A stretch of 64,000 nucleotides of DNA from contig CALYRG010000001.1 in NCBI GenBank assembly GCA_945482615.1, positions 1 through 64,000 on the forward strand, in the 5' to 3' direction. Below the pieces are notes generated by a model, which saw only the letters and a list, made by a program, of their open reading frames with translations, made no database searches and was not told where the DNA came from. The position numbers and the translations under genes were made by a program. Positions within the stretch are counted from its first letter, which is position 1. Each line of letters starts with the position of its first letter. Below, piece by piece: positions 369 through 40,147 of this stretch. This DNA is from an uncultured Clostridia bacterium. Lineage in GTDB: Bacteria > Bacillota > Clostridia > Oscillospirales > Oscillospiraceae.

Positions 369-537
369 GATATTTACCCCTAAGTAACTGCATAATCCTA
401 ACATCTCAGAGGGAATCACACTTGTGGTTCCCTCTTCTTTTTTATTTGGTAGTGTCTGAATGGTGTCCTATTGGAAAAAGAATGGTGTTTTTGACGCAGT
501 TTCGTACCCCTGTTAAGCCCGTGTTTCCCGGGCGGTC

Positions 538-1762: not shown

Positions 1763-2173
1763 TCACAACACTCTGACGGAGCGGAGCAGCCGCAGCTCCA
1801 CCAGCGTGCCGTCCTCAAAGAGGATGGCACGTTCCACATCGTCCAGATTTCGCACCACGCCGGTCTTGCGAAGGTAGGTGCCGCCGGACTTGAACATATC
1901 CTTTTCAAAGTAGGTCACTGTCACCTCCGGGCGTTCCCTCAGCCGGGAGCGAATATCCCGGAGGGCGGCATCCAGAACTGCCTTTTCATCCTCCTCCAGG
2001 AATACAAATTCCTCCGTCCGCCGCTCCTCCTCCCGGACGGCATCCTCGTAGCCCACCAGAGCGGCAAAGGGGGCGAACTGAGCCGCCCTGTCCGCCAGGG
2101 GCATGGGCAGATGCCGGTCCGATCCGGGCCGGGGCAGACCAATGATATCATCGTAGCGGTGGGATCTGTCCAT
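1763..2173 (-). CDS. YolD-like protein
   Basis: Sequence PLADRAAQFAPFAALVGYEDAVREEERRTE and position directly downstream of a Y-family polymerase. Confidence 0.65.
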   Translation of the reverse strand: MDRSHRYDDIIGLPRPGSDRHLPMPLADRAAQFAPFAALVGYEDAVREEERRTEEFVFLEEDEKAVLDAALRDIRSRLRERPEVTVTYFEKDMFKSGGTYLRKTGVVRNLDDVERAILFEDGTLVELRLLRSVRVL

Positions 2174-2183
2174 ACTGCCTCCT

Positions 2184-3662
2184 TCACGCCTTGTGACCGC
2201 CGATCTGTCCGTTGCGGCTGATGGTGGTGCCCTCCTCCCGGAGGTTCATGCCCTTGATGACGGCATTCCTGCCGAACTTCTTCTGAATGGCGAGAATGGT
2301 CTGCTGCTTGCGCATCTGGCGCTCCTCGTCCTCCGGTTCCTCCCGGGGCGTGTCAAACAGATTCATCTGCACCGGCCCTTCCTCCCTGGCCTCCTGGGCG
2401 GGGATCAGATGATTGGCGCTGATGGTTACCCGGCGGATGAGAAGATTTTTGTCCACCGTGCGCCCATAGATTTCCATGACGGCCCGGGTGATGCGCCGGG
2501 ACGAGGCTGTAAACCCATTCAGAGGCTCGCTGCCGTTGGCATATTTGGGGACAGTTCGCCCGTAGCGATCCATGACCAGCTCTCCCCGGTAGTCTTCTGC
2601 CGCCTCCCGGTCATAGCCCACCATCAGCACCACCTGATCCGTCACCATGCCCTTCCGGGCCAGATCCAGGGCCAGCTGATCCGCCATTTCCCGGACGATC
2701 AGACTCCCCTCGTCATAGGTATAGGGCCGCTGCAGAACCTGACCGGAGCTGACGCTGTTGCTGCGGGGGCGGTAGGCCTTGATGTCTCGCATGGTGCAGG
2801 GCTCGATGCCCCAGGCGTGGTCGATGAGAAGCTCCGCGTTGACGCCGAAGAGCCTGTACAGCAGCTCCTCATTGTAGTAATCCTGCGCCCCGCCCAGGGA
2901 GCACCGGGCGATATCCCCCATGGTAAAGAGCCGGTGCTTTTCCAGCTTCCGGGCATACCCCGGCCCCACACGCCAGAAGTCCGTCAGCGGGCGGTGATCC
3001 CACAGCTGCTCCCGGTAGCTGCGCTCCGTCAGCTCGGCGATCCGCACGCCGTCCTCATCCGGCGGAATATGCTTGGCCACAATGTCCATAGCCACCTTGC
3101 ACAGATACAGGTTGCTGCCGATTCCGGCGGTAGCGGTAATGCCGGTGCGCTGCAGCACATTCCGGATCATGGTCATCACCAGCTCCCGGGGGGTCTGACC
3201 GTAGAGCTTCAGATAGGCCGTCAGATCCATGAACACCTCGTCGATGGAGTAGACGTGGATGTCCTCCGGAGCGATATATTGAAGATAGATGCCGTAAATT
3301 TTGGTGCTGGCCTCCACATAGTAGCGCATCCGGGGCGGGGCCACGATGTAGGACACTGCCAGCTTTGGATTGGATGCCAGCTCCTGAGCATCCCAGGACT
3401 CCCCCTCAAAGTCAGCGCCCTGGAGCCTGCCCTTCCGGATGGCGTTGGCCTGCCGTACCTTCTCCACCACCTCAAAGAGTCTGGCCCGGCCGGGAATGCC
3501 CAGGGCTTTCAGGGAGGGAGACACCGCAAGGCAGATGGTTTTCTCCGTCCGGCTCTCATCCGCCACCACCAGATTAGTGCGCAGAGGGTCCAGCATCCGG
3601 GCGGCGCACTCCACCGAGGCATAGAAGGATTTTAAGTCAATGGCTGCGTAGACCCTGTCCAT
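2184..3662 (-). CDS. Y-family DNA polymerase (DinB/UmuC/UvrX-like)
   Basis: MDRVYAAIDLKSFYASVEC and VYSIDEVFMDLT motifs; start at 3662 preferred over 3809. Confidence 0.9.
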   Translation of the reverse strand: MDRVYAAIDLKSFYASVECAARMLDPLRTNLVVADESRTEKTICLAVSPSLKALGIPGRARLFEVVEKVRQANAIRKGRLQGADFEGESWDAQELASNPKLAVSYIVAPPRMRYYVEASTKIYGIYLQYIAPEDIHVYSIDEVFMDLTAYLKLYGQTPRELVMTMIRNVLQRTGITATAGIGSNLYLCKVAMDIVAKHIPPDEDGVRIAELTERSYREQLWDHRPLTDFWRVGPGYARKLEKHRLFTMGDIARCSLGGAQDYYNEELLYRLFGVNAELLIDHAWGIEPCTMRDIKAYRPRSNSVSSGQVLQRPYTYDEGSLIVREMADQLALDLARKGMVTDQVVLMVGYDREAAEDYRGELVMDRYGRTVPKYANGSEPLNGFTASSRRITRAVMEIYGRTVDKNLLIRRVTISANHLIPAQEAREEGPVQMNLFDTPREEPEDEERQMRKQQTILAIQKKFGRNAVIKGMNLREEGTTISRNGQIGGHKA

Positions 3663-3859
3663 ACCCCACCTCCGCTTTCCCTGGATAGACCCAGTATACC
3701 ACAATGGCGTCCAAAAATCTATTGGCAAAATAAACATATGTTTGATTTTGTCAATGCTCTCAAAGCATTCCTTGGCATCCATAATAAGTATTTGCAATTT
3801 TCCATGCATTTGTGTATAATGTAGGCCGTAGAATCGGGAAAAGCACAGAAAGGGGTCCT

Positions 3860-4528
3860 ATGATGGAGCATGTAATGGGAGTCGTTACCGACTCATTCTT
3901 CAAAATTCTCATACCGGGCATCACCATGACCATCCCCCTGACGGCGATTTCCTTTGCTCTGGCCATGGTCATCGCCGTGACCGTGGCTCTGGTGCAGTAC
4001 GCCAGGGTGCCGGTGCTGACGCCTCTGGCCCGGTTCTATATCTGGATCATCCGGGGAACCCCGCTGCTGGTTCAGCTGTTCGTGGTGTTCTACGGTCTGC
4101 CCAACCTGGGCATCCGCCTGGAGCCCTTTCCGGCGGCAGTGATGGTCTTCTCCATCAACGAGGGGGCCTACTGTGCCGAGACGGTGCGCTCCGCCCTGGA
4201 ATCCGTGCCTGTGGGTCAGCTGGAAGCGGGCTTCTGCGCCGGACTGAGCTACCTGCAGACCGTGCGGCGGATCATCCTTCCCCAGGCCCTGCGGACGGCC
4301 TTCCCGCCCCTGTCCAACTCCCTCATTGCCATGATGAAGGATACGTCTCTGGCTGCCAACATCACCGTCACCGAGATGTTTATGGCCACCCAGCGGCTGG
4401 CTGCCCGCAATTTTGAGTATCTGACGCTGTATCTGGAGGTGGCGTTCATCTACCTGATGTTCTCCACCGTTCTGACCCGGCTGCAAAGCTGGGGGGAAAA
4501 GCGGCTGAAGGCCGGTTTGGGGGAGTAA
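3860..4528 (+). CDS. Amino-acid ABC transporter permease
   Basis: WIIRGTPLLVQLFVVFYGLPNLGI and EAGFCAGLSYLQTVRRIILPQALR signatures. Confidence 0.92.
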   Translation: MMEHVMGVVTDSFFKILIPGITMTIPLTAISFALAMVIAVTVALVQYARVPVLTPLARFYIWIIRGTPLLVQLFVVFYGLPNLGIRLEPFPAAVMVFSINEGAYCAETVRSALESVPVGQLEAGFCAGLSYLQTVRRIILPQALRTAFPPLSNSLIAMMKDTSLAANITVTEMFMATQRLAARNFEYLTLYLEVAFIYLMFSTVLTRLQSWGEKRLKAGLGE

Positions 4529-4531
4529 CGA

Positions 4532-5278
4532 ATGCTGGAAATTCAGAATCTGACCAAGACCTTTGGTACACTCACGGTGCTGGACGGTGTGTCCCTGGCG
4601 GTAGAGCAGGGGGACGTGGTGGCCATTCTGGGCCCCAGCGGCTCCGGCAAGACCACGATGCTGCGATGCCTGAACTTTCTGGAAACCGCCGACAGCGGGG
4701 TCCTTACTTTTGACGGGGAAGCCTTTGATATGCGCACCATCTCCCGGCGGGACATAGCCCGGCTGCGGAAAAAGACTGCCTTCGTCTTCCAGAACTACAA
4801 CCTGTTCCGGAACAAAACCGCCCTGGAAAACGTCACCGAGGGTCTGATTATCGGACGGCACATGCCAAAGGTCCAGGCCATAGACATCGCCAAAAAGGCC
4901 CTGACCAAGGTGGGCCTTGCCGACCGGATGGACCACTACCCAGTGCAGCTTTCCGGCGGACAGCAGCAGCGGGTAGGCATTGCCCGGGCCATTGCCACCA
5001 ACCCCGAAATCATCTACTTTGACGAGCCCACCTCCGCTCTGGACCCGGAGCTGATCGGAGAGGTGCTGGCCGTCATGCGGCAGCTGGCGGAGGAGGGGAT
5101 GACGATGCTGGTGGTCACCCACGAGCTCAACTTCGCCAAAAACGTATCCAGCAAGGTGCTGTTTATGGAGGATGGAAGCATTCTGGAAGAAGCCTCCTCT
5201 CACGATTTCTTTGCCGCTCCCAGAGAGGGTCGGGTCAGAGAATTTCTGCGCTCCATCAGCACCGACCATATCTATTGA
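4532..5278 (+). CDS. Amino-acid ABC transporter ATP-binding protein
   Basis: Walker A GPSGSGKTT, signature LSGGQQQRVGIARAI, Walker B IIYFDEPTSALD. Confidence 0.95.
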   Translation: MLEIQNLTKTFGTLTVLDGVSLAVEQGDVVAILGPSGSGKTTMLRCLNFLETADSGVLTFDGEAFDMRTISRRDIARLRKKTAFVFQNYNLFRNKTALENVTEGLIIGRHMPKVQAIDIAKKALTKVGLADRMDHYPVQLSGGQQQRVGIARAIATNPEIIYFDEPTSALDPELIGEVLAVMRQLAEEGMTMLVVTHELNFAKNVSSKVLFMEDGSILEEASSHDFFAAPREGRVREFLRSISTDHIY

Positions 5279-7626: not shown

Positions 7627-7968
7627 ATGCAATCCTGTAACGGAAGCTGCGGCGGCTGCTCCGGCTGCAGCAAAGCCTTGGAGCTGACAAAGCCTGAGCT
7701 GGACTTTCTTGCCTCCCTGGGAGAAATCCCCTTTCAGCCTCTGGTCCGGCTGCCTGGGGAGGACAGACCCATCTATCCCGGCCGGGGAGAGGAGACCACC
7801 CGGGTCCTCCTGCTTCTGGAGCGGAAGGGTCTGGTGTCCCTGGACTATGACAAGCCTCTGGCGGGCTTCCCCTATCCGGACTATCCCATCCGGGGCAGCG
7901 TTGCCCTGACCCTGCGGGGCCAGCAGGTTCTGGAGCTGATGGACTATCAGGGCATTCAAGACAGTTGA
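7627..7968 (+). CDS. Hypothetical protein with Cys-rich N-terminus
   Basis: CNGSCGGCSGCSK start; winged-helix-like remainder; isolated ORF with plausible start. Confidence 0.55.
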   Translation: MQSCNGSCGGCSGCSKALELTKPELDFLASLGEIPFQPLVRLPGEDRPIYPGRGEETTRVLLLLERKGLVSLDYDKPLAGFPYPDYPIRGSVALTLRGQQVLELMDYQGIQDS

Positions 7969-8016
7969 TTTTGCTCCCATCTGCTGATATAATACGGGGA
8001 ATACTCTCTATAGAAA

Positions 8017-8739
8017 GTGAATGACAATCCTATGAACATGCGCGAATACCGGCTGGGGGTCAGCCACGGCCTGCCGGTAGGAATGGGCTACTTCTCTGTC
8101 AGCTTTGGCTTTGGTGCCATGGCTGTCAGCCAGGGTCTGAAGGTGTGGGAGGCAACGCTGATCTCCCTGACCAATCTGACCAGCGCCGGTCAGTTTGCGG
8201 GGCTGACCGTCATCGTGGCGGGAGCCACCATTCTGGAAATGATCCTCACCCAGCTGATTATCAACAGCCGCTACGCCCTGATGAGTCTTGCACTGAGCCA
8301 GCGGATGGGGCAAAGAATCGGGGTATTCCCCCGAATCCTGATTGCCTTTTTCAACACCGATGAGATCTTTGCCCTGGCCATGGCCCGGCACGAGCCCCTG
8401 ACTGTCCCCTACCTTCTGGGGCTGGGTACCCTGCCCATCCTGGGCTGGACAGGCGGTACGCTATGCGGAGCCCTGGCCGGAAGCGTACTTCCGGTGTCCA
8501 TCCGGAATGCCCTGGGGGTCATGCTCTACGGCATGTTCATCGCCATCGTGGTGCCTCCGGCAAAGCGGGAGCGGGAGATTCTGGCAGCGGTGGGGCTGGC
8601 GCTGGTGTGCAGCAGCCTGTTTGCCTGGCTCCCGGTTCTGCAGAAGGTGTCCGCCGGCATTTCCATCGTGCTGTGCACCCTGGTTTCCGCCTGCATCTGC
8701 GCGGCGGTGTTTCCGGTGAAGGAGGAGGCTGCGGTATGA
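8017..8739 (+). CDS. azlC: AzlC family branched-chain amino acid exporter subunit
   Basis: GLPVGMGYFSVSFGFGAMAV and multiple TM segments; followed by AzlD. Confidence 0.88.
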   Translation: MNDNPMNMREYRLGVSHGLPVGMGYFSVSFGFGAMAVSQGLKVWEATLISLTNLTSAGQFAGLTVIVAGATILEMILTQLIINSRYALMSLALSQRMGQRIGVFPRILIAFFNTDEIFALAMARHEPLTVPYLLGLGTLPILGWTGGTLCGALAGSVLPVSIRNALGVMLYGMFIAIVVPPAKREREILAAVGLALVCSSLFAWLPVLQKVSAGISIVLCTLVSACICAAVFPVKEEAAV

Positions 8740-9053
8740 ACATCCTGCTCTACATTCTGGCCATGGCTCTGACCACTTATCTGATCCGGGTGCTGCCCCT
8801 GACCATCTTCCGCAAGCCCATCCGCAGCCGCTATCTGCGCTCGGTGCTCTATTATGTGCCCTACACCTGTCTGACTGCCATGACTTTTCCCGCAATTCTG
8901 AGCAGCACCACATCCCTGGTCAGCGGCGCGGCTGCCCTGGCTGTGGCCGTGTTCCTGGCCTACCGGGGAAAGAGTCTGATTGTGGTGGCTCTCAGCAGCA
9001 GCGCGGCGGTTCTTGCTGCAGAAGCGGTCATGCGGCTGGCAGGACTTCTATAA
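8736..9053 (+). CDS. azlD: AzlD domain protein
   Basis: Start overlaps azlC stop; TYLIRVLPLTIFRKPI...FLRSVLYYVPYTCLTAMTFPAI-type sequence. Confidence 0.88.
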   Translation: MNILLYILAMALTTYLIRVLPLTIFRKPIRSRYLRSVLYYVPYTCLTAMTFPAILSSTTSLVSGAAALAVAVFLAYRGKSLIVVALSSSAAVLAAEAVMRLAGLL

Positions 9054-9161
9054 TCGGAAAATTTGGAATTGTCTTCCTGCTATTGTAAATAAAATGTATA
9101 CTTTCTCCCCATTTTCTTGACGAAATGGGAAGTGTCTGTTATAATTCGGAGGTTCTTGTAC

Positions 9162-9731
9162 ATGACGATCGGAGAATTGCTGCTGCTCGCTGTCGGCCTG
9201 AGCATGGACGCCTTTGCCGTGTCCGTCTGCAAGGGCCTTGCCACGCCCCATTCCTCCGCAAAGGCCAGTGCCCTGTGCGGTGTCTGGTTCGGCGGCTTTC
9301 AGGGTCTGATGCCCCTGATCGGATTTTTTCTGGGCTCCCTGTTTGCCGAGGCCATTTCCAGCGTGGATCACTGGGTCGCTTGTGGCCTGCTCGCCATCAT
9401 TGGTCTGAACATGCTCAAGGAAGCCCGGGAATGCAGCGACTGTCAGGAATCCGATGGGGATCTGTCGGTGAAGACCATGTTCATTCTGGCGGTAGCCACT
9501 TCCATTGACGCTCTGGCCGTGGGCATTTCCCTGGCCATGGCAGGGAACGTGAGCATCCTGATGGCCGTGATCCTCATTGGCTGCTGCACCTGCATCCTGT
9601 CCGCCATCGGCGTGCAGGTAGGCAGTGCCTTTGGCAACCGGTTTGAGAAAAAGGCGCAGATTGCCGGAGGCATCATCCTCATCCTTCTGGGTATTAAAAT
9701 TCTGCTGGAGCACCTGGGGGTACTGGCATGA
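9162..9731 (+). CDS. mntP: Manganese efflux pump MntP family
   Basis: GLSMDAFAVSVCKGLA and ATSIDALAVGISLAM repeats. Confidence 0.92.
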   Translation: MTIGELLLLAVGLSMDAFAVSVCKGLATPHSSAKASALCGVWFGGFQGLMPLIGFFLGSLFAEAISSVDHWVACGLLAIIGLNMLKEARECSDCQESDGDLSVKTMFILAVATSIDALAVGISLAMAGNVSILMAVILIGCCTCILSAIGVQVGSAFGNRFEKKAQIAGGIILILLGIKILLEHLGVLA

Positions 9732-10165
9732 AGTGCACACCTGCACGGCTGCGCCTGTGCACTGCCCTGCTGACCGCCGTTCTGGTGTTCATCTGGGGCA
9801 ACTCTCTGCTGCCGGCATCGGTTTCCCAGCAGTTCAGTGATTTTGTGGGACATGTTCTGGAGGAGATCCTTCCGGTGGGCCTGGAAGACCTGCCGGAGGA
9901 AAGTGAAAGCTTCCTGCTGCGAAAGCTGGCTCACCTGACGGAATTTATCACCCTGGGTGTGCTGCTGGCCTGGAACTGCGCCATGCGTCAGAAAAGAACA
10001 GCTTTTCCCCTGCTGTGGGGCATTGCAGCTGCCTGTATCGATGAGACCATCCAGGTCTTTGTCCCCGGCCGGGGGCCGGGACTGCGGGATGTGGCCATCG
10101 ATTCTCTCGGCGTGCTGCTGGGTATCGTTTTGCTCCATTTGGGGCATAGATATCTCAAACATTGA
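9728..10165 (+). CDS. VanZ family protein
   Basis: FLLRKLAHLTEFITLGVLLAW and GRGPGLRDVAIDSLGVLLG. Confidence 0.85.
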   Translation: MKCTPARLRLCTALLTAVLVFIWGNSLLPASVSQQFSDFVGHVLEEILPVGLEDLPEESESFLLRKLAHLTEFITLGVLLAWNCAMRQKRTAFPLLWGIAAACIDETIQVFVPGRGPGLRDVAIDSLGVLLGIVLLHLGHRYLKH

Positions 10166-10191
10166 AGAAACATTAAACGGAGGAACTCTCT

Positions 10192-10776
10192 ATGAAACGC
10201 GCATTATCCATTTTGATGCTGGCCGCACTGCTCACCGGCTGCGGCAGCAGCAAGGCTCCCGCTCCCACTGCGGCTCCCACGGAAACCACCGTTGCCGCTG
10301 CCCCCGCTCCGGCCCCTTTGGAAATCCTGGAGACCGTTTGGGCTGCCATCCCGGAGGAAAACCGTTTCCCCGCCTGCGGCGGCGAAATGACCGATACCAT
10401 TCAGGAGGGTCCCGGCGCCCTGGATCCTGCCAACACCGACGCGCTCCTGTACACCCTGCTTGTGCCCGAGGAGCAGGTTGCAAACGTCAGGGAAGCCGCT
10501 TCCCTGATCCACATGATGAACACCAACACCTTCACCTGCGGCACATTCCGTCTGGAGGGCGTTACCGACGGCGTATTTGCCGATGCCATGAAAAACCGCA
10601 TCCTGAACAATCAGTGGATGTGTGGTTTCCCGGAGCGTGTGATTATTGCCTCCTTCGGCGACGACACCGTGCTGTGCGCCTACGGCAAGAACAGTGCGCT
10701 GGATCCTTTCATGGATCAGCTTACCAAGACCTACTCCGGTCAGATGGTTCTTCTGGTGGACGAGCCCATCGAATAA
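10192..10776 (+). CDS. DUF4358-like lipoprotein
   Basis: Lipobox LLTGCG; upstream of MBOAT and DHHW genes. Confidence 0.65.
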   Translation: MKRALSILMLAALLTGCGSSKAPAPTAAPTETTVAAAPAPAPLEILETVWAAIPEENRFPACGGEMTDTIQEGPGALDPANTDALLYTLLVPEEQVANVREAASLIHMMNTNTFTCGTFRLEGVTDGVFADAMKNRILNNQWMCGFPERVIIASFGDDTVLCAYGKNSALDPFMDQLTKTYSGQMVLLVDEPIE

Positions 10777-10833
10777 TCCCAATCGAGGCGGCCTGTGTGC
10801 CGCCTCAATTCCTATGAAAAGAGGTGGCTGCAC

Positions 10834-12207
10834 ATGGTTTTTTCCAGCATTCCCTTCCTGTATTATTTTCTTCCGGCTGTGATGCTGGTCTATTTTGCGG
10901 CACCCGGGAAGCTGAAAAACGGTGTGCTGCTCCTGTTCAGCCTCCTGTTTTACGGCTGGAGCGAGCCCCGGCTGCTGGCGCTGATGGTCGCAACAATTCT
11001 TCTGTTCTACCTGTGCGGCCTTGCCATCGGAAAAACCCGGCGCAGGTCGTTTCTGGTTCTGGGCACCGTACTGGGCGTGGGCCTGCTTGCCGTTTTCAAG
11101 TACGCCGATTTCTTCATCGGCAGCGTCAACGCCGCCACCGGGCTGTCCCTGCCCATGCTCCGGCTGGCTTTGCCTGTGGGCATCAGCTTCTACACCTTCC
11201 AGTGCCTGAGCTATATCGTGGATGTCTACCGGGGCAGTGTGCCCCCCCAGAAGAACCTCGTCTCCTTCGGCGCATATGTGGCCCTCTTTCCCCAGCTGAT
11301 CGCAGGCCCCATCGTCCGCTACGCCCATGTGGCCCGGGAGCTGGAAAGCCGCTGTCACACTTGGGAGGACGCGGCCCAGGGTGCACGTCGGTTTCTGGTG
11401 GGCCTGGGCAAGAAGGTGCTGCTGGCGGACAATTTTGCCCTGCTTATCCGGCTGTTCCGGGAAAGCGGAGAGAAAAGCGTCCTGTTTTACTGGATGTATG
11501 CCGCCGCCTTTACCCTGAACATCTACTTCGATTTTTCCGGCTACTCCGACATGGCCATCGGCCTGGGACGGATCTTCGGCTTCCACTTTGAGGAGAATTT
11601 CAACTATCCGTATCTATCCCGGAGCGTCACCGAGTTCTGGCGGCGCTGGCACATGTCCCTGGGCTCCTGGTTCCGGGACTATGTGTATATCCCCCTGGGG
11701 GGCAACCGTGTCAGCAGGCCCCGGTGGTTTCTGAATATCCTCACCGTGTGGCTGCTCACCGGCCTGTGGCACGGTGCAGCCTGGAATTTTGTGCTGTGGG
11801 GTCTGCTGTTCGCGGCGCTGCTGCTGCTGGAAAAGGCCCTGCCCGGAATCCAAAAGCTCCCCCGGTGGCTCTGCCATGGCTATGTACTGCTGGTGATTGC
11901 CATGAGCTTCGTGCTGTTCAATGCCGACAGCCTGTCTCAGGCATCCTCGGACTATCGGGCGCTGTTTGGCTTTGGGGGGCTTCCCGTCGTGACGAAAGTC
12001 ACCTTGTACTATCTGCGCTCCTACGCTGTGCTGTTCCTCCTGGGCATTCTGGGTGCAACTCCCCTGCCCCGGCGCATTGGGGCGCGGATCGCCGCATCCC
12101 GGGCCGGAACCGTCCTGACGGGGCTGTTCCTGGCGGCGGTGCTGCTGGTGTGTACGGCATATATGGTGGATGGGTCCTTCAGTCCCTTCCTGTATTTCCG
12201 GTTCTGA
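10834..12207 (+). CDS. MBOAT family O-acyltransferase (AlgI/DltB-like)
   Basis: SFYTFQCLSYIVDVYRG, FDFSGYSDMAIGLGRIFGF, WRRWHMSLGSWFRDYVYIPLGGNR, GLWHGAAWNFVLWG. Confidence 0.93.
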   Translation: MVFSSIPFLYYFLPAVMLVYFAAPGKLKNGVLLLFSLLFYGWSEPRLLALMVATILLFYLCGLAIGKTRRRSFLVLGTVLGVGLLAVFKYADFFIGSVNAATGLSLPMLRLALPVGISFYTFQCLSYIVDVYRGSVPPQKNLVSFGAYVALFPQLIAGPIVRYAHVARELESRCHTWEDAAQGARRFLVGLGKKVLLADNFALLIRLFRESGEKSVLFYWMYAAAFTLNIYFDFSGYSDMAIGLGRIFGFHFEENFNYPYLSRSVTEFWRRWHMSLGSWFRDYVYIPLGGNRVSRPRWFLNILTVWLLTGLWHGAAWNFVLWGLLFAALLLLEKALPGIQKLPRWLCHGYVLLVIAMSFVLFNADSLSQASSDYRALFGFGGLPVVTKVTLYYLRSYAVLFLLGILGATPLPRRIGARIAASRAGTVLTGLFLAAVLLVCTAYMVDGSFSPFLYFRF

Positions 12208-29857: not shown

Positions 29858-30535
29858 CTATTCCAACTCCTTTCGCAGCTTTTCCAGCGCACGCTTCTCG
29901 ATCCGGGATACGTAGCTCCTGCTGATTCCAGTGATAGCCGATACCTCGCGCTGCTTTTTCGGAGGGCCGCCATCCAGGCCATAGCGCAGGACGATCACCT
30001 GCCGTTCCTGATCCGACAGGCAGCTGTCTACCTTGCCCCGGAGCTGCCGCGTCAGCTCCCGGTTGGATACCTGCTCCAGAAGGTCCCCGTCCTGGCTGAC
30101 CACATCCATCAGCTCCAGCGGCGCACCGTCCGTACCCGTCTCGATCATGTCGGACAAGGACACATCCTGGGCGCTCTTCCGCTGCGCCCGGAAATACATG
30201 AGGATTTCATTTTCTACGCACCGGGCGGCATAGGTTGCCAGCCTTGCTCCCTTTTCGGGGTTGAAGGTTTCAATGCCTTTGATGAGCCCAATGGTTCCGA
30301 TGGAGATCAGGTCCTCCTGATCGGAGGTCTGGGTGTAGTATTTTTTCATGATGTGCGCAACCAGGCGCAGATTCCGTTCAATGAGGATGTTTCGGGCGTC
30401 CAGATCTCCCTGGTGGGCAAGCTCCACGTAATAGCGCTCCTCCTCTCCGGTCAGAGGCTTGGGGAAGGAGCCGGTGGACAGCTGCAGGGAGTACAACAGT
30501 GTGCTGAGCATCAGCCATGCGGAAAGCAGCATCAT
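29858..30535 (-). CDS. sigK: RNA polymerase sporulation sigma factor SigK (full length, 225 aa)
   Basis: SigK-like pro-sequence, region 2 [42 protein letters not shown], region 4 SYVSRIEKRALEKLRKEL. Confidence 0.95.
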   Translation of the reverse strand: MMLLSAWLMLSTLLYSLQLSTGSFPKPLTGEEERYYVELAHQGDLDARNILIERNLRLVAHIMKKYYTQTSDQEDLISIGTIGLIKGIETFNPEKGARLATYAARCVENEILMYFRAQRKSAQDVSLSDMIETGTDGAPLELMDVVSQDGDLLEQVSNRELTRQLRGKVDSCLSDQERQVIVLRYGLDGGPPKKQREVSAITGISRSYVSRIEKRALEKLRKELE

Positions 30536-30581
30536 ACATCACCTCAGCATACCTTATTCGCTGTTGGTTGTCCCTTTTCCT
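30345..30581. repeat. Direct repeat copy A (237 bp, perfect; within full-length sigK and its upstream DNA)
   Basis: Base-by-base identical to 39856-40092 (offset 9511). Confidence 0.97.
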
Positions 30582-30838
30582 ACAGGTTTCAAAGAACTTG
30601 TCTGCCTTTCTGCCAGGGGTGGAATACCCGTTACAATCCTCTGCCCATGAAAATGCCCCCGTATCCTTGCATCTCTCAAACGGATGCGACATAATGTGGG
30701 CAACAGAATCATAACTTCCAAAATTTTTCTGGAATGTGTGACCCGGGAGAGAAAACCTCGTACTACCAGGGTGAGGAACGAATGGAAAGCGCAGTGTCAA
30801 CAAATCCACAGGAAGGAACTGTTGGAAGGATAACAAAT

Positions 30839-31188: not shown

Positions 31189-32187
31189 ATGCGTTTCAAC
31201 ATTTCACTCAATATCTGTGAAGAAACTATAATGAATTATGCCCCGGCATTGCTGGATATTCTCCTTTTTGATCGTACCACAAGACGAAACATCATCTGGG
31301 CTACGGATGACTATGCCGAAAGAGGCATTGAATACAGTGCTTCCTCTGAGATTCGTCCTGAATTGATAACAGGCTTCAACTCCATGCTGATTCGCCCCAG
31401 AATTGCCAAGAGCATTGAAGCCCAGGAGAGCCGTACCCGGGGCAGAGCAGAGGTTTTTACTCCTTGCTGGGTCTGTAATGTTCAGAATAATTTGGTAGAT
31501 GAGCAGTGGTTTGGCCGTTCCTCTGTATTTAATATAGAGGGCGATAAAGAGTGGGAAACCACTGGGGATAGAATTCAGTTCCCGGACGGGTACCAGAAAA
31601 CATGGAAAAAATATATAGATGCTAAGCGTTTGGAAATCGCCTGTGGTGAAGCTCCCTATTTGGTCAGCCGCTATGATACGGTTTCTGGCTCATTGATTCC
31701 GATTAAACGCAGGATAGGCCTGCTGGATCGCAAGCTTCGTGTGGTCAATGAGAATACGGACAACGCAGAGGACTGGTTCAAGTGGACACTCCGGGCATTT
31801 CAGAGTGTTTACGGATATGAATTTCAAGGAGATAACCTGCTTCTGGCGCGGGAGAATCTGCTGGCAACCTTTATTGAGTATTATCAGGATCGTTTTGGTG
31901 AAGCACCTACTGTGAAGCAACTTGGCTTAATTGCCCGTACCATAAGCTGGAACATCTGGCAGATGGATGGCGTCAAATTCGTAGTTCCCTACAGCTGCAA
32001 GCCGCAGCAATTGGATCAACAGCTGTCTCTGTTTGATTTTGGAGAAGATCAGGAAGAAGTCATACCCTGCTTCGGCTGTAAAACCGGGAATATCCGTGAA
32101 CACACCGGTATCTATTGCAGGATATATGACTGGCGCGAGAATGCCAGCTTGCGATATGTAGATATGGTGAAAGGAGAGCGTGTATGA
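31189..32187 (+). CDS. R-M methyltransferase component with motif X/I-like sequence (annotated elsewhere as 'restriction endonuclease subunit M' type)
   Basis: RGRAEVFTPCWVCNVQNNLVD (motif X-like), LEIACGEAPYLVSRYD (motif I-like), YGYEFQGDNLLLARENLL. Confidence 0.7.
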   Translation: MRFNISLNICEETIMNYAPALLDILLFDRTTRRNIIWATDDYAERGIEYSASSEIRPELITGFNSMLIRPRIAKSIEAQESRTRGRAEVFTPCWVCNVQNNLVDEQWFGRSSVFNIEGDKEWETTGDRIQFPDGYQKTWKKYIDAKRLEIACGEAPYLVSRYDTVSGSLIPIKRRIGLLDRKLRVVNENTDNAEDWFKWTLRAFQSVYGYEFQGDNLLLARENLLATFIEYYQDRFGEAPTVKQLGLIARTISWNIWQMDGVKFVVPYSCKPQQLDQQLSLFDFGEDQEEVIPCFGCKTGNIREHTGIYCRIYDWRENASLRYVDMVKGERV

Positions 32188-35100
32188 GCACACAGATCTA
32201 CACTGGTACTGCCCAGTACAATCTGATTTATGTCTTTGCGATTCATGACGATGGGCATAAGGACTATCTGAAGATCGGCGAAACTAGCTTTTCCAGTGCT
32301 TCCAGTTTCAAGCAGCTCTCTCCGAACTGCCATGAGTTGAATCTCCATGCCCATGCCCGGATTCAGCAGTACACCAAAACTGCGCTCATTCAATATGAGC
32401 TTCTTCATACGGAACTGGCTAGAATCCAGGTCCAGCTTGCGGACGGGACCATTGAAAGCACCACCTTCAGTGACAAAGATGTGCACGAAGTGCTGGATCG
32501 CTCCGGCTTTGACCGTCACAATTTCTATGACACCGGGAAAGGCAGTGAGTGGTTCAAGGTAAGCTTGCCGCAGGCAATTTGTGCCATTCGCGCGGTAAAA
32601 GAGGGCAGAAATACCCTTACTGCCGCTGAAATCTCCGGTGCGATTGTCCTTACGGATACAACGAACCCTGTAATCAGCAGCGCGGCGGAAAGGCCAAAGC
32701 CCAAAATCGTCCTTCGCGATGAGCAGAAAGCATGCATTAACAAGACTCGCAGCGTATTTGCCCAAGGGGATCGTATGCTCTGGGACTGCAAGATGCGTTT
32801 CGGCAAGACCATCACTGCCTATTCTTTGGTCAAAGAGATGGGCTATCAAAAGGTTCTGGTGGTCACCCACCGCCCTGCGGTTGTGGACGGCTGGCGTAAC
32901 GATTTCAGCTTGATATTTGAAGATGACCGGGTGTTTGTTACCAAGGAAAACATCACTGTGGGGGACCGTTTCACCGCAGAGGATGCGGGTATTGACGCAG
33001 AAAATGACCGTCATCTGCGGAATTTGGCAGATAGCGGCAGACCTTTCGTGTATTTCGCCTCCATGCAGGACCTGCGTGGTTCCGCATTAGCGGGCGGCAA
33101 ATTTGATAAAAACCGTGGCGTGTTTGCCATGGACTGGGATATTATCATCTATGACGAAGCCCATGAGGGAACCCAGACCGATCTGGGGCTCAATGTGCAG
33201 AAACTGTTGGAGGAGCCAAAGACCGGCAAGGCTCCTAAGAAGGTGCTTCAGCTTTCTGGTACGCCCTATAATCTGCTGAATCAATACGCAGATGACAATG
33301 TGTATTCCTGGGACTATGTCATGGAACAGCAGGCAAAGCGTGATTGGGACAAGACGCACCCCGGTGACCATAATCCCTATGCTGACCTGCCGGAAATGCG
33401 GATTTGCACCTTTGACCTGCGGAAGAAGCTGGCAAACTCCTACCGTTATGAGGATGAGAGTGTTGCTTTCAACTTTCACGAATTCTTCCGCACCTGGACT
33501 GGTGACCCGGATCGGGATTTCCGTCCCCTGCCAGCAGGTGTATCTGCCGGTGACTTTGTCCATGAAAGCGATGTCTGGCAGTTTCTGAATTTAATCTCCA
33601 CGGATAGTGAGGATTCCAACTATCCCTTTGCCACCCAGGAATACCGGGATATGTTCAAGCATACTTTCTGGATTTTACCCGGCGTAAAGGAAGCACGGGC
33701 ATTCAGTGCCATGCTGAAAAAGCACCCGGTGTTTGAAAAATATGAGATTGTCAATGTTGCAGGTGAGGGAGATCAGGAGCAGCCTTATGACGATGCGCTG
33801 AAAGCCGTCCGGGAAGCCATCGGTAAGCACAGCCATACCATCACCCTGTCCTGTGGTAAACTGACTACCGGCGTTACTGTGAAACAGTGGACCGGTGTAA
33901 TGCTGCTTTCCGGCTCTGCCAGTACCGGTGCGGCCGGGTATATGCAGACCATTTTCCGCGTTCAGTCCGCCGGCAGCATTGATGGCAAACAGAAGACGGT
34001 TTGCTATGCGTTTGACTTCGCTCCTGACCGCACTCTGAAGGTGCTGTCGGATGTTCATAGTCTGAAAAAGTCTGCTGTCGGAACCGACGATGCGGGGAGG
34101 GTCAAGCTGGGCGAATTTCTGAACTTCTGTCCTGTTCTGGCGGAAGCGGAAACCGGCATGGAATTCTATGATGTTCCGAAAATGATGCGTCAGCTCAAGC
34201 GGCTGACCGTGGATGCCGCAGTCAAGAGCGGTTTTGACGATGACAGCATTTATAAGGCTGATGCAGGCATCGTTATGGATAAACAGAAGCTACAGCTTAT
34301 GGATGTGCTGAAAGCTCGGCTGAGTCCCCAGAAGAAGGGTAAACAAGACCCCCACGTGAAGGTCAATGACCAGGGACTAACGGATGAACAGTACCAAAAG
34401 GCGCAGGATGCCAAGCGTAAGCCCAAGCGGGAACGTACCAAGGAGGAGCAGGCGGCTCTGGATAAAGAAAAGGAAATGAAAAAACAGCAGCAGAATCTCT
34501 TTGACCTGCTGCGCAATGTCTCCATCCGGCTACCGCTGCTGATTTTCGGAACCGCCGCTGACTTTGATGAATCCATCCGGCTGGCGGAATTTGTGGACAA
34601 GGTGGACGCGGCCTCCTGGCAGGAGTTCATGCCGAAGGAACTGGACAAAGAGCTGTTCCTGAAACTGCTGGTATTTTACGATGAGGATGTAATTGAGGGA
34701 GCGGGGATGCGCATCCGCCGCATGGCAAAAGCTGCAGACGAGCTGATGCCCACGCGCCGTGTGATGAAAATCGCCGAGATTTTCACCTATTTCAAAAACC
34801 CCGCAAAGGAGACGGTGCTGACGCCGTGGCGTGTGGTGAACATGCACATGGGTAATACGATAGGCGGCTATAACTTCTGTAAAGAGGACTATCCTATGCA
34901 GGACGGGCTGCTAGAGGAACCACGCCTGATCGAGCAGGGCGAGGTGACAAGCGCCTTGTTCCTGAACGAAAATGTTCGGATTCTGGAGATGAACTCCAAA
35001 TCCGGTCTCTATCCGCTTTATGTGGCCTACACCATCTATCGCATGATGCTCCCGAAGAACGAAGAGCAGATGACACTGGAAGAGGCACAGAGCTGGTGGC

Positions 35101-36302
35101 GGCGGGCACTTCGCGACCACCTGTTCGTGCTGTGCCAGACAACCATGGCTGTGGCCATTACAAAGCGTACTCTGGCAGGCTATACTGGCGCGGAGGTCAA
35201 CGCCATCTATCTGCCCAAGCTGCTGAATCGCATGGAGGATAAACAGCGGCTTGCGCGGAAACTGACCAGCCCGGCGACCTGGAAGAAAGAAGGGGAACGT
35301 TTGAAATTTGATGCTGTTGTAGGAAATCCGCCCTACCAGCTGACGGGCGGCTCTGGCGGAACAAATGATTCGCCGATTTATCAGCATTTTGTACAGCTAG
35401 CAAAGAAGGTAGATCCAACTTACTTGTCGTTCATTATGCCCTCTCGCTGGTTTACTACAGGACGTGAAAACCTGATTGGCGGATTTCGTCGTGAAATGCT
35501 GACTGATAGAACTATCAGCAAAATGGTTGTTTACACTGATTCCCATGATGTTTTTCCATCAGTTGAAATCAAAGGCGGACTTTGCTATTTCTTGATGGAT
35601 TCAAGATATAATGGCGATTGCAGATATGAGCTGATAGAGGGGGGCGCAAGAACTGTTGATATGCGCAATCTTGGCGACTTTGATATTCTTATCAGAAATG
35701 CAAAGCTGGGCGAAATTGTCAAAAAGGTAATGTCCGGCATTTCAAGCGAGAGCGAAACAGTAGCCTCCATTGTTTCATCTGATACGCCTTTTGGAATACC
35801 GACAAATCCGTTTGGCAGTGCGAAGCTGTCTATCCCAGTTTACCGTTACATATCTGCTGAGCATAATACCCGCCTCTACTATTTGGAAAACATGGAGCGC
35901 TCCATAGCGTATGTGAGCAAAACGTCCATTACAAAAAATTCTCAGGACATTGATAAGTATAAGGTGTTGATTCCTGAAGCCGGAGGTTCCGGCAATGACC
36001 CAATGGTATTAGGAAAACCGATTTGTGCCCCGGAGAATTCAATTTGTTCACAGACATTTTTGTATGTTCCTTTTGAGAGCGAGGTAAAGGCTCTGAATTT
36101 TATTTCATATTTGCAGACAAAGTTGTTCCGTATACTGGTTTCTGCTTGCAAGATTTCACAGCACGCGCCGAGCAAAACCTATCGTTTTGTTCCCATGCAG
36201 GATTTCTCCAGACCGTGGACGGATGCAGATTTGTATGCCAAGTATGGCCTGACGGATGAGGAGATTTCGTTCATCGAAGCGACGATCAAGCCAATGGTGT
36301 AA
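32184..36302 (+). CDS. GIY-YIG-like/SF2 helicase/Eco57I-type N6-adenine methyltransferase fusion (1372 aa)
   Basis: YVFAIHDDGHKDYLKIGET; Walker A-like MRFGKT, DEAH IIYDEAHEGTQTD; FDAVVGNPPYQLTGG; C-terminal LYAKYGLTDEEISFIEATI. Confidence 0.85.
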   Translation: MSTQIYTGTAQYNLIYVFAIHDDGHKDYLKIGETSFSSASSFKQLSPNCHELNLHAHARIQQYTKTALIQYELLHTELARIQVQLADGTIESTTFSDKDVHEVLDRSGFDRHNFYDTGKGSEWFKVSLPQAICAIRAVKEGRNTLTAAEISGAIVLTDTTNPVISSAAERPKPKIVLRDEQKACINKTRSVFAQGDRMLWDCKMRFGKTITAYSLVKEMGYQKVLVVTHRPAVVDGWRNDFSLIFEDDRVFVTKENITVGDRFTAEDAGIDAENDRHLRNLADSGRPFVYFASMQDLRGSALAGGKFDKNRGVFAMDWDIIIYDEAHEGTQTDLGLNVQKLLEEPKTGKAPKKVLQLSGTPYNLLNQYADDNVYSWDYVMEQQAKRDWDKTHPGDHNPYADLPEMRICTFDLRKKLANSYRYEDESVAFNFHEFFRTWTGDPDRDFRPLPAGVSAGDFVHESDVWQFLNLISTDSEDSNYPFATQEYRDMFKHTFWILPGVKEARAFSAMLKKHPVFEKYEIVNVAGEGDQEQPYDDALKAVREAIGKHSHTITLSCGKLTTGVTVKQWTGVMLLSGSASTGAAGYMQTIFRVQSAGSIDGKQKTVCYAFDFAPDRTLKVLSDVHSLKKSAVGTDDAGRVKLGEFLNFCPVLAEAETGMEFYDVPKMMRQLKRLTVDAAVKSGFDDDSIYKADAGIVMDKQKLQLMDVLKARLSPQKKGKQDPHVKVNDQGLTDEQYQKAQDAKRKPKRERTKEEQAALDKEKEMKKQQQNLFDLLRNVSIRLPLLIFGTAADFDESIRLAEFVDKVDAASWQEFMPKELDKELFLKLLVFYDEDVIEGAGMRIRRMAKAADELMPTRRVMKIAEIFTYFKNPAKETVLTPWRVVNMHMGNTIGGYNFCKEDYPMQDGLLEEPRLIEQGEVTSALFLNENVRILEMNSKSGLYPLYVAYTIYRMMLPKNEEQMTLEEAQSWWRRALRDHLFVLCQTTMAVAITKRTLAGYTGAEVNAIYLPKLLNRMEDKQRLARKLTSPATWKKEGERLKFDAVVGNPPYQLTGGSGGTNDSPIYQHFVQLAKKVDPTYLSFIMPSRWFTTGRENLIGGFRREMLTDRTISKMVVYTDSHDVFPSVEIKGGLCYFLMDSRYNGDCRYELIEGGARTVDMRNLGDFDILIRNAKLGEIVKKVMSGISSESETVASIVSSDTPFGIPTNPFGSAKLSIPVYRYISAEHNTRLYYLENMERSIAYVSKTSITKNSQDIDKYKVLIPEAGGSGNDPMVLGKPICAPENSICSQTFLYVPFESEVKALNFISYLQTKLFRILVSACKISQHAPSKTYRFVPMQDFSRPWTDADLYAKYGLTDEEISFIEATIKPMV

Positions 36303-36337: not shown

Positions 36338-37333
36338 ATGCCAAAGTCTTCAAACGCAACTGCATCAGCTTTCGGATGGGAGTTTCAGAGCAATGCAGCC
36401 ATTATGCTGATGATAAAAAATATCGTTAACGCTTCTAAAGTCAAAGTTGAGGGTGAAAACGAAGATGTTGAAATAACGTTTTCTGACGGGAAAATGCTGA
36501 TGGCTCAGGCAAAAGCTGTTGAAAACCCTGATGATGTTAGTCATGTCAAGGAAAAATTGACGAGCGGCCTTCGAACACTGAATGATGCCGCCAAGGATCC
36601 AAATGTCAATCAGCTGATTTTCGTTACAAATTCACCAAATCCTTTTAAGGATGTAACAACAATGTATAAATTCAGCAGCCCGCTCAATGTAGTTCCGTTT
36701 TCCGAGTTGCCAGAGAGCTGCCAAGAGGTGGTAAACGATATTTGCGCAACGTGCGGATACAATATCGACGTGTCAATGCTGACCGTTTGCGTGATGCAGT
36801 TTCATGGGCAGGCCGAAGATGAGCGTTACAAGGTGCTGCGATCTTTGACAGAAGAATTTCTCAACGACATTGGTGTTGAGAAGGTTTCTGCCAACCAAAT
36901 ACTGTCATTGTGGCAACATTCATTTTCAGTAAATGCCTCACAGCGAACAACGTCAATCACCAAGGAGAGCATGGTGTGGCCAATTATCGCCATTCTTTGC
37001 GAAGTGCGCGAAACTGACACGGAGCTAGACGATTATGACTCTTCTGATGTCGCTGAAATCCTACGGAAATATAAGGCCGTGATAAACAACAATTCTGAAC
37101 GCTTTGAGTTTATTTCAAAGGTACTCAGCGACTACGAAGAGTTCCATCTTGAAATGAAATCAAGGGACAGGGTGCCTCGTTTTATTTCCGAACGATGGAA
37201 TCAGTACACGGAGGACTTTGATCTAAAAAATGCAGATACAGCTACAGCGGAAGCAGTGATACGACTTACGATATTAAATGTCCTTAAAAGCCGCAGGATA
37301 ATTGCCGACATAAAAAGCAAGGTGAAATTATGA
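36338..37333 (+). CDS. PD-(D/E)XK-like putative nuclease (Cap4/DUF4297-like arrangement)
   Basis: FGWEFQSNAAIMLMIKNI...VEGENEDVEITFSDGKMLMAQAKAV: E...ED...QAK arrangement; RBS AGGAGGAGGTGA. Confidence 0.5.
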   Translation: MPKSSNATASAFGWEFQSNAAIMLMIKNIVNASKVKVEGENEDVEITFSDGKMLMAQAKAVENPDDVSHVKEKLTSGLRTLNDAAKDPNVNQLIFVTNSPNPFKDVTTMYKFSSPLNVVPFSELPESCQEVVNDICATCGYNIDVSMLTVCVMQFHGQAEDERYKVLRSLTEEFLNDIGVEKVSANQILSLWQHSFSVNASQRTTSITKESMVWPIIAILCEVRETDTELDDYDSSDVAEILRKYKAVINNNSERFEFISKVLSDYEEFHLEMKSRDRVPRFISERWNQYTEDFDLKNADTATAEAVIRLTILNVLKSRRIIADIKSKVKL

Positions 37334-38790
37334 GAATTGTATCATTACAAGTCAATTCAATACAGCGGACTTTTTTGAGTGATGACCAGAAGACATATGC
37401 GTTCGGCCCAAATGTGAATATCATTTTCAGTGCAAAAAATAGTGTTGGAAAAACTACACTGCTACGAATGCTTATGTATGCTTTAGGCTACCCAATACCA
37501 AGTACTCGCGGCATTCGGTTTTCTGATTATGAAACGGTTCTCACAGTCATAGGTGCAAATGAGCGAGAGTTTGTATTGACCAGAAATCGTAATTACATTG
37601 AAATTGCATATGATGGGAATGAAAACGGGTACTCCCTTCCTTCTGAACAAGCCGAACTACATACGCTGATTTTTGGTATTGACAACCTTGAAGTAGTTGA
37701 AAATCTTCTAGGCGCATTTTATATTGACCAGGAAAAAGGCTGGACCCTTTTGAACCGTGGGAAGGTTATTGGGGATATCCACTTTTCGATTGAATCCTTG
37801 CTCAGGGGACTTTCAAATAAATCGAATGATGAATTAGCACAGAGACTTGCTGTCGTCAGACGAGAAATTCAGAAATATAAGCACATGCTCGATGTGGCCA
37901 ATTATAAGGCTGAGATAAATAAGCTTGGAGAAACCATTTATCTGGATTCTACAGCCGACGAAATAGAGTCTATGTTAGAAGCACTGTACTGCGAAAGAAA
38001 GCCTCTCGAAGAAGAACTGCATCGGATAAAGAATGTTGTCCGAAAGAATTGTAGTTTCGAGAAGTACATCGCTTCTTTTCGACTTCGGGTAAAAACGCCA
38101 GATGGAAACGAAATACCTGTCAATAAGGATACTTTGGTAGGTTATGCAGATACGGCACAGCTTCTTGTTACGAAACAGCGACTCGTTTGTCAGCGGCTAG
38201 CAGAAATTGATCAAAAAATACAGGTTTTAAAGAGTAGGCAAGACAAAGATGAAGCCATGTTCGATGTGAAAACTAGGCTAGAGCAATTTGACAGTGAAAT
38301 ATCCAGGATTGACGTTGATGCTTTGGCGATACAGCGTATAATCTCAAAATTGGAAAAAGAGCGAAAGAGCCTGGAAGATCAAGTTATTACAAATGTCAAG
38401 CGGGATAATCCCCTTGTGATTGAACTGCACGGACTGATTTCACAATATGCTACACGTCTCGGCTTGGATGAAAAATATGTAAGTGCGCGAACAGATTATA
38501 TTTTTACAAACGACCTTAAGTCGTTATCCGGAGCAATATTTCATAAAGTGGTATTTGCTTTTAAGATATCGTATGTAAAACTCATTCAGAATCATACAGG
38601 AATTTGCCTCCCGATCATTCTTGATTCTCCAAGAGGACGTGAAGTAAGCGAAGAAAATGTAAACGAGATGATGGCAATCCTATCAGAAGACTATTATGAC
38701 CATCAAATTATAATTGCATCGATTTATAACAGTTACGCTTTCACCGATAAAATTGTAATTGAATTACAGGATCGACTTTTGCCATTTTAA
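37330..38790 (+). CDS. Rad50/SMC-like AAA ATPase
   Basis: Walker A FSAKNSVGKTTLL; predicted coiled-coil middle; Walker B-like LPIILDSPRGREVSEENV; ATGA overlap with upstream gene. Confidence 0.8.
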   Translation: MRIVSLQVNSIQRTFLSDDQKTYAFGPNVNIIFSAKNSVGKTTLLRMLMYALGYPIPSTRGIRFSDYETVLTVIGANEREFVLTRNRNYIEIAYDGNENGYSLPSEQAELHTLIFGIDNLEVVENLLGAFYIDQEKGWTLLNRGKVIGDIHFSIESLLRGLSNKSNDELAQRLAVVRREIQKYKHMLDVANYKAEINKLGETIYLDSTADEIESMLEALYCERKPLEEELHRIKNVVRKNCSFEKYIASFRLRVKTPDGNEIPVNKDTLVGYADTAQLLVTKQRLVCQRLAEIDQKIQVLKSRQDKDEAMFDVKTRLEQFDSEISRIDVDALAIQRIISKLEKERKSLEDQVITNVKRDNPLVIELHGLISQYATRLGLDEKYVSARTDYIFTNDLKSLSGAIFHKVVFAFKISYVKLIQNHTGICLPIILDSPRGREVSEENVNEMMAILSEDYYDHQIIIASIYNSYAFTDKIVIELQDRLLPF

Positions 38791-38934: not shown

Positions 38935-39201
38935 TTATCTTTCCTCCATTACTTCGAGCATCATCCGAGCTCCCAGGCGGAAGCTGTTCTGGAACAGAAG
39001 GCATTCTGCCATATCTTGAAATTCCCGCACACTGTCCACATACCGGGCGAACAACTCCCTCTGTGCATCCGTCATGGTGGTCTGGACCTTTTCTTCGTTC
39101 CGGCTAATCAGCTGAAGGGCTTCCTTGTATTCCGCACAGGGACATGTATCATATTCCGTTGGCTCAATATTACCGTACCAAAATTCTTCAAGTATTCTCA
39201 T
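38935..39201 (-). CDS. DUF6809-like protein associated with transposons
   Basis: MRILEEFWYGNIEPTEYDTCPCAEYKEAL; overlaps TnpV-like ORF. Confidence 0.65.
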   Translation of the reverse strand: MRILEEFWYGNIEPTEYDTCPCAEYKEALQLISRNEEKVQTTMTDAQRELFARYVDSVREFQDMAECLLFQNSFRLGARMMLEVMEER

Positions 39202-39563
39202 TTTATATCCTCCCCGTAGATTAGCTCCTCTCGGATGATTTCCTCAGCTCTGGCGCGGATGTTGTTCATGGCACCAACCCAAGCCATTGGGTCGTTAGCT
39301 TTCAAGTCTTCCGTAATTCCCTCGGCGGTTTTCATCTGCTCGATTATCCGATCCAGCCTGTCCTGCGCCTGCTCATTCAGGTCAGCCAGATAAGTCCACA
39401 GTTCGCCGGACAGGAGCAGACAGTTGTACTGAATCGGCTTATGCTCTCTCAGGTACTCCCGGCGCATCCGGCCCCACCTGCCAATGGGGCGGGATTCTTG
39501 TGGCAGTTCCAGGTCAGGAATGAAGTAATCGCCCATTCGAATGTATTGCATTTCCATAGTCAT
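39198..39563 (-). CDS. tnpV: TnpV-like transposon-encoded protein
   Basis: YIRMGDYFIPDLELPQESRPIGRWGRMRREYLREHKPIQYNCLLLSGELWTYLADLNEQAQDRLDRII. Confidence 0.8.
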   Translation of the reverse strand: MTMEMQYIRMGDYFIPDLELPQESRPIGRWGRMRREYLREHKPIQYNCLLLSGELWTYLADLNEQAQDRLDRIIEQMKTAEGITEDLKANDPMAWVGAMNNIRARAEEIIREELIYGEDIK

Positions 39564-39845: not shown

Positions 39846-40046
39846 TTATCCCTTATTCATGATGTGCGCAACCAGGCGCAGATTCCGTTCAATGAGGATG
39901 TTTCGGGCGTCCAGATCTCCCTGGTGGGCAAGCTCCACGTAATAGCGCTCCTCCTCTCCGGTCAGAGGCTTGGGGAAGGAGCCGGTGGACAGCTGCAGGG
40001 AGTACAACAGTGTGCTGAGCATCAGCCATGCGGAAAGCAGCATCAT
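39846..40046 (-). pseudogene. Truncated sigK 5' copy (63 sigK codons, then NKG-stop)
   Basis: Identical to SigK residues 1-63, then diverges at the element junction. Confidence 0.95.
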
Positions 40047-40092
40047 ACATCACCTCAGCATACCTTATTCGCTGTTGGTTGTCCCTTTTCCT
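39856..40092. repeat. Direct repeat copy B (237 bp, perfect)
   Basis: Identical to 30345-30581. Confidence 0.97.
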
Positions 40093-40147
40093 GCAGGCTT
40101 CAAAAGAACGCGCCTGCTTTCCTCCAAGGCCAGGATGCAGCCTGTAC

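Follow-up and report, generated by a model that had tools for sequence, protein, structure and literature searches.

A pair of adjacent genes at 36338-38790 of a 64,000-nt stretch of DNA from an uncultured Clostridia bacterium (the window) raises two questions: to which kind of defense system does the pair belong, and what does its position behind a restriction system mean? An earlier note, made from the sequence alone, had called it a minimal two-gene module of a nuclease and an ATPase, with products of 331 and 486 aa, and the two ORFs are indeed present at these positions. They are named M46A (gene 3) and M46B (gene 4) here, and M46AB as a pair. Our preferred reading, to which we assign a probability of about 0.7, is that M46AB is a two-protein Lamassu-type defense module, which would sense DNA ends, release a nuclease, and often act as the second line of a restriction-modification (RM) operon.

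M46A (36338-37333, forward strand, 331 aa) is a predicted PD-(D/E)XK nuclease of the Cap4/LmuA type. The gene starts with an ATG at 36338, with a strong Shine-Dalgarno sequence (aggaggaggtg) just 5' of it, and stops at 37333. The protein matches the PADLOC model PDC-M46A (PDLC04661) over its full length (1.2e-114; residues 1-331 to 1-335 of 335). Pfam Cap4_nuclease is matched at 9e-4, which is under the Pfam cutoff. The nuclease residues are G13, F16-Q17, E38, D43, Q57 and K59. In an alignment that initially comprised 20 proteins and was then enlarged to 30, G13, Q17, E38, D43, Q57 and K59 are invariant (30/30 homologs), so that the acidic/QxK motif attributed to gene 3 in the earlier note is conserved well beyond chance; as judged from the alignment, this is the layout of a Cap4-type PD-(D/E)XK nuclease. 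A variant from a Fusobacteriaceae genome (L021, 4623-6155) has an N-terminal addition of about 160 aa and retains the nuclease residues. The AlphaFold2 model of M46A (pLDDT 89) has as its top PDB folds LmuA of Salmonella with DNA (9hr5, 3.6e-5), LmuA in 9nxx, HerA-DUF and Cap4. The sequence match to LmuA in 9ux7 is weak (0.0066). Sequence profile and predicted fold together indicate that M46A is a nuclease of the Cap4/LmuA type. Matches to the designed proteins 7unh and 7uni were rejected as helix noise, and a SAVED domain was not found with Pfam or PADLOC.

M46B (37330-38790, forward strand, 486 aa) is a predicted LmuB-like ATPase of the Rad50/SMC type with a short coiled coil. It matches PADLOC PDC-M46B (PDLC04663) at 2.1e-174 (residues 18-484 to 12-476 of 483), with the LmuB models as the next PADLOC family (7e-22) and a sub-threshold match to Pfam AAA_23 (3e-5). 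Both nucleotide-binding motifs proposed for gene 4 were located: Walker A (S34, N37, G40-K41 and T43) and Walker B (IILDSP, 429-434), where a serine replaces the usual glutamate (DSP). The signature motif is LSGA in the window (399-402). A further motif, YIDQEKGW, is found at 131-138, and its DQEKGW stretch is strictly conserved in the M46B alignment. When the M46B profile was compared to PDB sequences, there was a single match, LmuB of the LmuAB-DNA complex 9ux7 (4e-16); the chain with the best fold match to the M46B model (pLDDT 84.7) is also LmuB of 9ux7 (3.5e-15). TM-scores of the M46A and M46B fold matches are low to modest (0.33-0.48), so that the fold evidence relies on E-value and rank rather than on full-length superposition. 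By sequence profile and predicted fold, M46B thus appears closest to LmuB of 9ux7, and the suspected kinship to LmuA and LmuB applies to both genes. Matches to PHROGs and to an archaeal SMC-related protein of NCBIfam (1.9e-8, with 33 bits where the cutoff is 300) were rejected as weak, generic ABC/coiled-coil matches.

M46A and M46B share 4 nt (ATGA), and their order and overlap are the same in nearly all homologous loci. A third Lamassu component hidden between them was considered and rejected because the genes overlap; neither the window nor the homologous loci have an LmuC-like gene in this place. Based on the full-length profile matches, M46AB is assigned to the PADLOC candidate PDC-M46 and hence to a family that had already been catalogued. 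Some PDC-M46 calls have been merged with the Lamassu calls of another tool in one survey (PMC11811056). In the literature, we found no described function, mechanism or RM link for PDC-M46, but an earlier mention of RM linkage is possible. Two-gene Lamassu systems are recognized as type I, and type II adds LmuC (PMC8565338; PMC12409362). Profile and model evidence points to M46AB as a compact, two-gene, type I-like Lamassu relative. In a tree of 30 M46B and 13 LmuB sequences, M46B forms a single clade (support 100/99) on a long branch; the tree is unrooted and some of the LmuB sequences are on long branches, so that the M46B clade may lie either within LmuB or next to it. A CxxC zinc hook is absent from all 30 M46B proteins and present in all 13 LmuB controls. 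According to a review (PMC10586767), the hook is present in many, not all, LmuB; its absence from M46B is therefore the mark of a sub-type, and M46B can still be a member of the Lamassu family. Where the earlier note had left the choice between a compact relative and a distinct family, both descriptions apply: the pair is homologous to type I Lamassu and belongs to a separate, hook-less clade. A categorically new family was rejected, given that full-length PADLOC models exist and the folds match LmuA and LmuB.

The view of a minimal two-gene module holds for the pair itself but is incomplete, as M46AB takes up the 3' end of a longer operon, which has four genes and begins near 31189-31231, and stands there behind an ATP-dependent RM system. 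This operon was not foreseen in the earlier note, and neither were the cataloguing as PDC-M46 and the recognition of two-gene Lamassu as an established form. The first gene, M1 (31231-32187, forward strand, about 318 aa; the ORF may start at 31189), codes for the RM partner. It matches PADLOC MTase_II (PDLC03390, 9e-128), has no Pfam match, and overlaps the gene for the RM subunit by 4 nt. This adjacency is conserved, being also found in L018, L115, L118, L119 and L121. The RM subunit (32184-36302, forward strand, 1372 aa) has a GIY-YIG-like N-terminus, a ResIII helicase domain (Pfam, 1e-12) and an Eco57I methyltransferase domain (Pfam, 1.5e-23; PADLOC REase_MTase_IIG, 2.7e-52). The GIY-YIG-type domain (T5orf172/MUG113) is significant only in the homologs from L117 and L119, with a weak match (0.21) for the protein from the window. 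M46A starts 35 nt after the RM subunit.

The operon is part of a 9.5-kb low-GC island, which is bounded by two 252-bp direct repeats (30342-30593 and 39853-40104) that are identical at 249 of 252 positions. The left copy covers the 5' end of an intact sigK-like gene for a sporulation sigma factor (29858-30535, reverse strand). The right copy is a truncated sigK-like 5' end, the frame breaking off after HIMNKG (about 63 codons). The island's right end holds genes for TnpV and DUF6809 (38935-39563, reverse strand), which are typical accessory genes of transposons and ICEs. A recombinase gene was not seen within the 9.5 kb. A genome from the same genus (G823) was compared to see if its sigK locus lacks the island; its contig stops about 520 bp upstream of sigK.

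Linkage to RM genes is recurrent. In 10 of 31 non-redundant loci (window included), M46A is immediately preceded by RM genes in the same orientation, with gaps mostly between -3 and 66 nt. M46AB directly follows an MmeI-like RM (L005), a D12 methylase with AlwI (L009), a type III RM (L010), D12 with EcoRV (L011), a type ISP RM (L014), a type I RM (L022), and relatives of the RM system from the window (L018, L023). It also follows a C5/Eco57I methylase with a type II enzyme (L002), in this case with an intervening 240-aa gene. When either strand and a distance of about 7 kb are allowed, 17 of 31 loci have RM genes. On the tree, direct RM linkage needs 7 changes (a change being a gain or a loss), at least 6 of which are forced by well-supported branches. 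M46B from the window and from L002 are 79% identical, and their upstream RM systems differ; L014 has an RM system, and its near relative L017 does not.

The position behind a given RM system may also have other occupants. In L118 (950-10051), genes for a CBASS cyclase and an E1-E2 protein, plus two others, come 14 nt after an RM system of the window type (M1 and the helicase-methyltransferase). We consider this to be an exchange of the abortive module in the slot that M46AB takes behind this type of RM. In L116 and L121, the window-type RM is followed by DUF262-like genes (with HEC-06-like and NsnA-like matches). In L115, a 397-aa protein devoid of Pfam and PADLOC matches is encoded 22 nt behind it (7640-8833); this protein is a possible candidate for an abortive partner of the RM. 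The kind of C5/Eco57I RM that is located ahead of M46AB in L002 also stands ahead of a canonical, zinc-hook LmuAB (L086, 3876-10791), which means that two different Lamassu clades have taken the same position.

Other Lamassu-type loci were analyzed for comparison. RM genes are directly upstream in 1 of 14 (L086) and within about 7 kb in 3 of 14. The enrichment of M46AB over these loci has p=0.07 for direct linkage (10/31 vs 1/14) and p=0.037 within about 7 kb (Fisher, one-sided); both values are indicative only, since the RM criteria were set while the loci were being inspected and the searches that supplied the 31 M46 loci were of unequal depth. The enrichment is thus suggestive, and with p=0.07 for direct linkage, we do not claim a statistically proven association. 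M46AB also stands alone, on plasmids (L030, L035 and L037, e.g., plasmids of 7.6-9 kb) as well as on chromosomes. Since such stand-alone pairs are frequent, M46AB does not require RM to function. Relatives at full or near full length are encoded on one phage record and on nine plasmid records, of which that from Bacillus mycoides is a weak match (22%); most of the loci found are chromosomal. One 19.5-kb plasmid from Secundilactobacillus (L034) carries two M46AB pairs (2171-4601 and 8968-11398).

For the mechanism, we draw on characterized Lamassu systems. Published work describes Lamassu as a sensor of DNA ends or hairpins (PMC12904381), and LmuA, once freed, forms a tetramer, which activates Cap4 (PMC12409362). 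By analogy, M46B would act as a Rad50/SMC-like ATP-binding clamp that keeps M46A inactive while it monitors for free or abnormal DNA ends. Upon binding of M46B to such ends, M46A would be released and would oligomerize into an active Cap4-type nuclease, which would destroy DNA in the infected cell (abortive defense). End sensing, release, oligomerization and harm to the infected cell are all inferred from this analogy. As M46B lacks the canonical zinc hook of LmuB, its dimer may differ. In RM operons, M46AB is most likely a second line of defense. It is tempting to speculate that RM cleavage of incoming DNA provides the ends that M46B senses, an idea which is based on the operon position and on two precedents: PrrC, which a linked type I RM keeps silent and a phage anti-restriction factor activates (PMC2610378), and RloC, which is activated by a DNA break inducer (PMC3874168). 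A more far-reaching version, which we regard as doubtful, is that RM operons of many types have an exchangeable 3' slot for abortive modules, with M46AB as one suited occupant that is triggered by RM cuts. If true, this would be a two-stage circuit with a sequence-specific first stage (RM) and a suicide second stage (M46AB).

Plain clustering of defense genes is a strong rival to any functional RM link. M46AB may be an independent Lamassu-like system that came to be adjacent to RM genes by island clustering and co-transfer, and we rate this at slightly less than even odds. The stand-alone pairs on plasmids and chromosomes fit this explanation, as do the flanking repeats and the TnpV gene of the island in the window, the nonsignificant enrichment of direct linkage over other Lamassu, and the canonical LmuAB behind RM in L086. 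It does not account well for the tight same-strand spacing in most direct cases (-3 to 66 nt), which is seen behind at least seven kinds of RM, or for an RM linkage that was repeatedly gained or lost on the tree.

In two other explanations, the role of the pair itself is different. M46AB might guard the RM system, with the RM complex silencing it until a phage anti-restriction protein disrupts the RM and thereby fires it. The location at the end of RM operons and the precedent of PrrC (type I RM silencing and phage anti-restriction activation; PMC2610378) are in line with such a role, but a specific protein contact would be hard to keep with RM partners that are structurally unrelated, and M46AB exists also without any RM neighbor; we consider this quite improbable. 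M46AB might instead have plasmids, not phages, as its main target, like DdmABC in Vibrio, which restricts plasmids (PMC12409362), and mobile elements might carry it to keep competitors out. This is unlikely, though less so than the guarding of RM: relatives do occur on the plasmid and phage records listed above, but plasmid carriage suits any mobile defense gene, and most loci are chromosomal.

With M46AB, a catalogued but unexplained candidate, PDC-M46, gains an identity as a short, zinc-hook-less, two-protein Lamassu. Its recurrent RM link is possibly meaningful and leads to a testable idea of why abortive systems are found behind restriction systems: the alarm may be the restriction cut itself. 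As linkage changed at least six times and one kind of RM carries either M46AB or CBASS, there are many natural combinations to test.

Among known systems, PrrC and RloC resemble M46AB in that an ABC/Rad50-like sensor is coupled to a suicide nuclease; they are, however, single tRNA-cutting proteins, whereas M46 has a separate protein with a DNase fold. CBASS with a Cap4 effector differs in that M46A has no SAVED match and the operon in the window has no cyclase gene (Pfam, PADLOC). Lamassu type II, DdmABC and ABC-3C share the combination of a Cap4-domain effector with an SMC-like ATPase but have a middle component (LmuC/DdmB) that is lacking in M46. Type I Lamassu (LmuAB; 9ux7/9ux8) also consists of two genes, for a Cap4-type LmuA and a Rad50/SMC-like LmuB, and the LmuAB chains of 9ux7 have the GxxxQ...ED...QxK and YIDQ...W motifs in common with M46AB. 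The differences are that M46B is in a separate clade, is devoid of the CxxC zinc hook, and is shorter (about 475-490 aa, compared to 560-670 aa for LmuB). PDC-M46 itself matches both genes at full length and is identical in composition.
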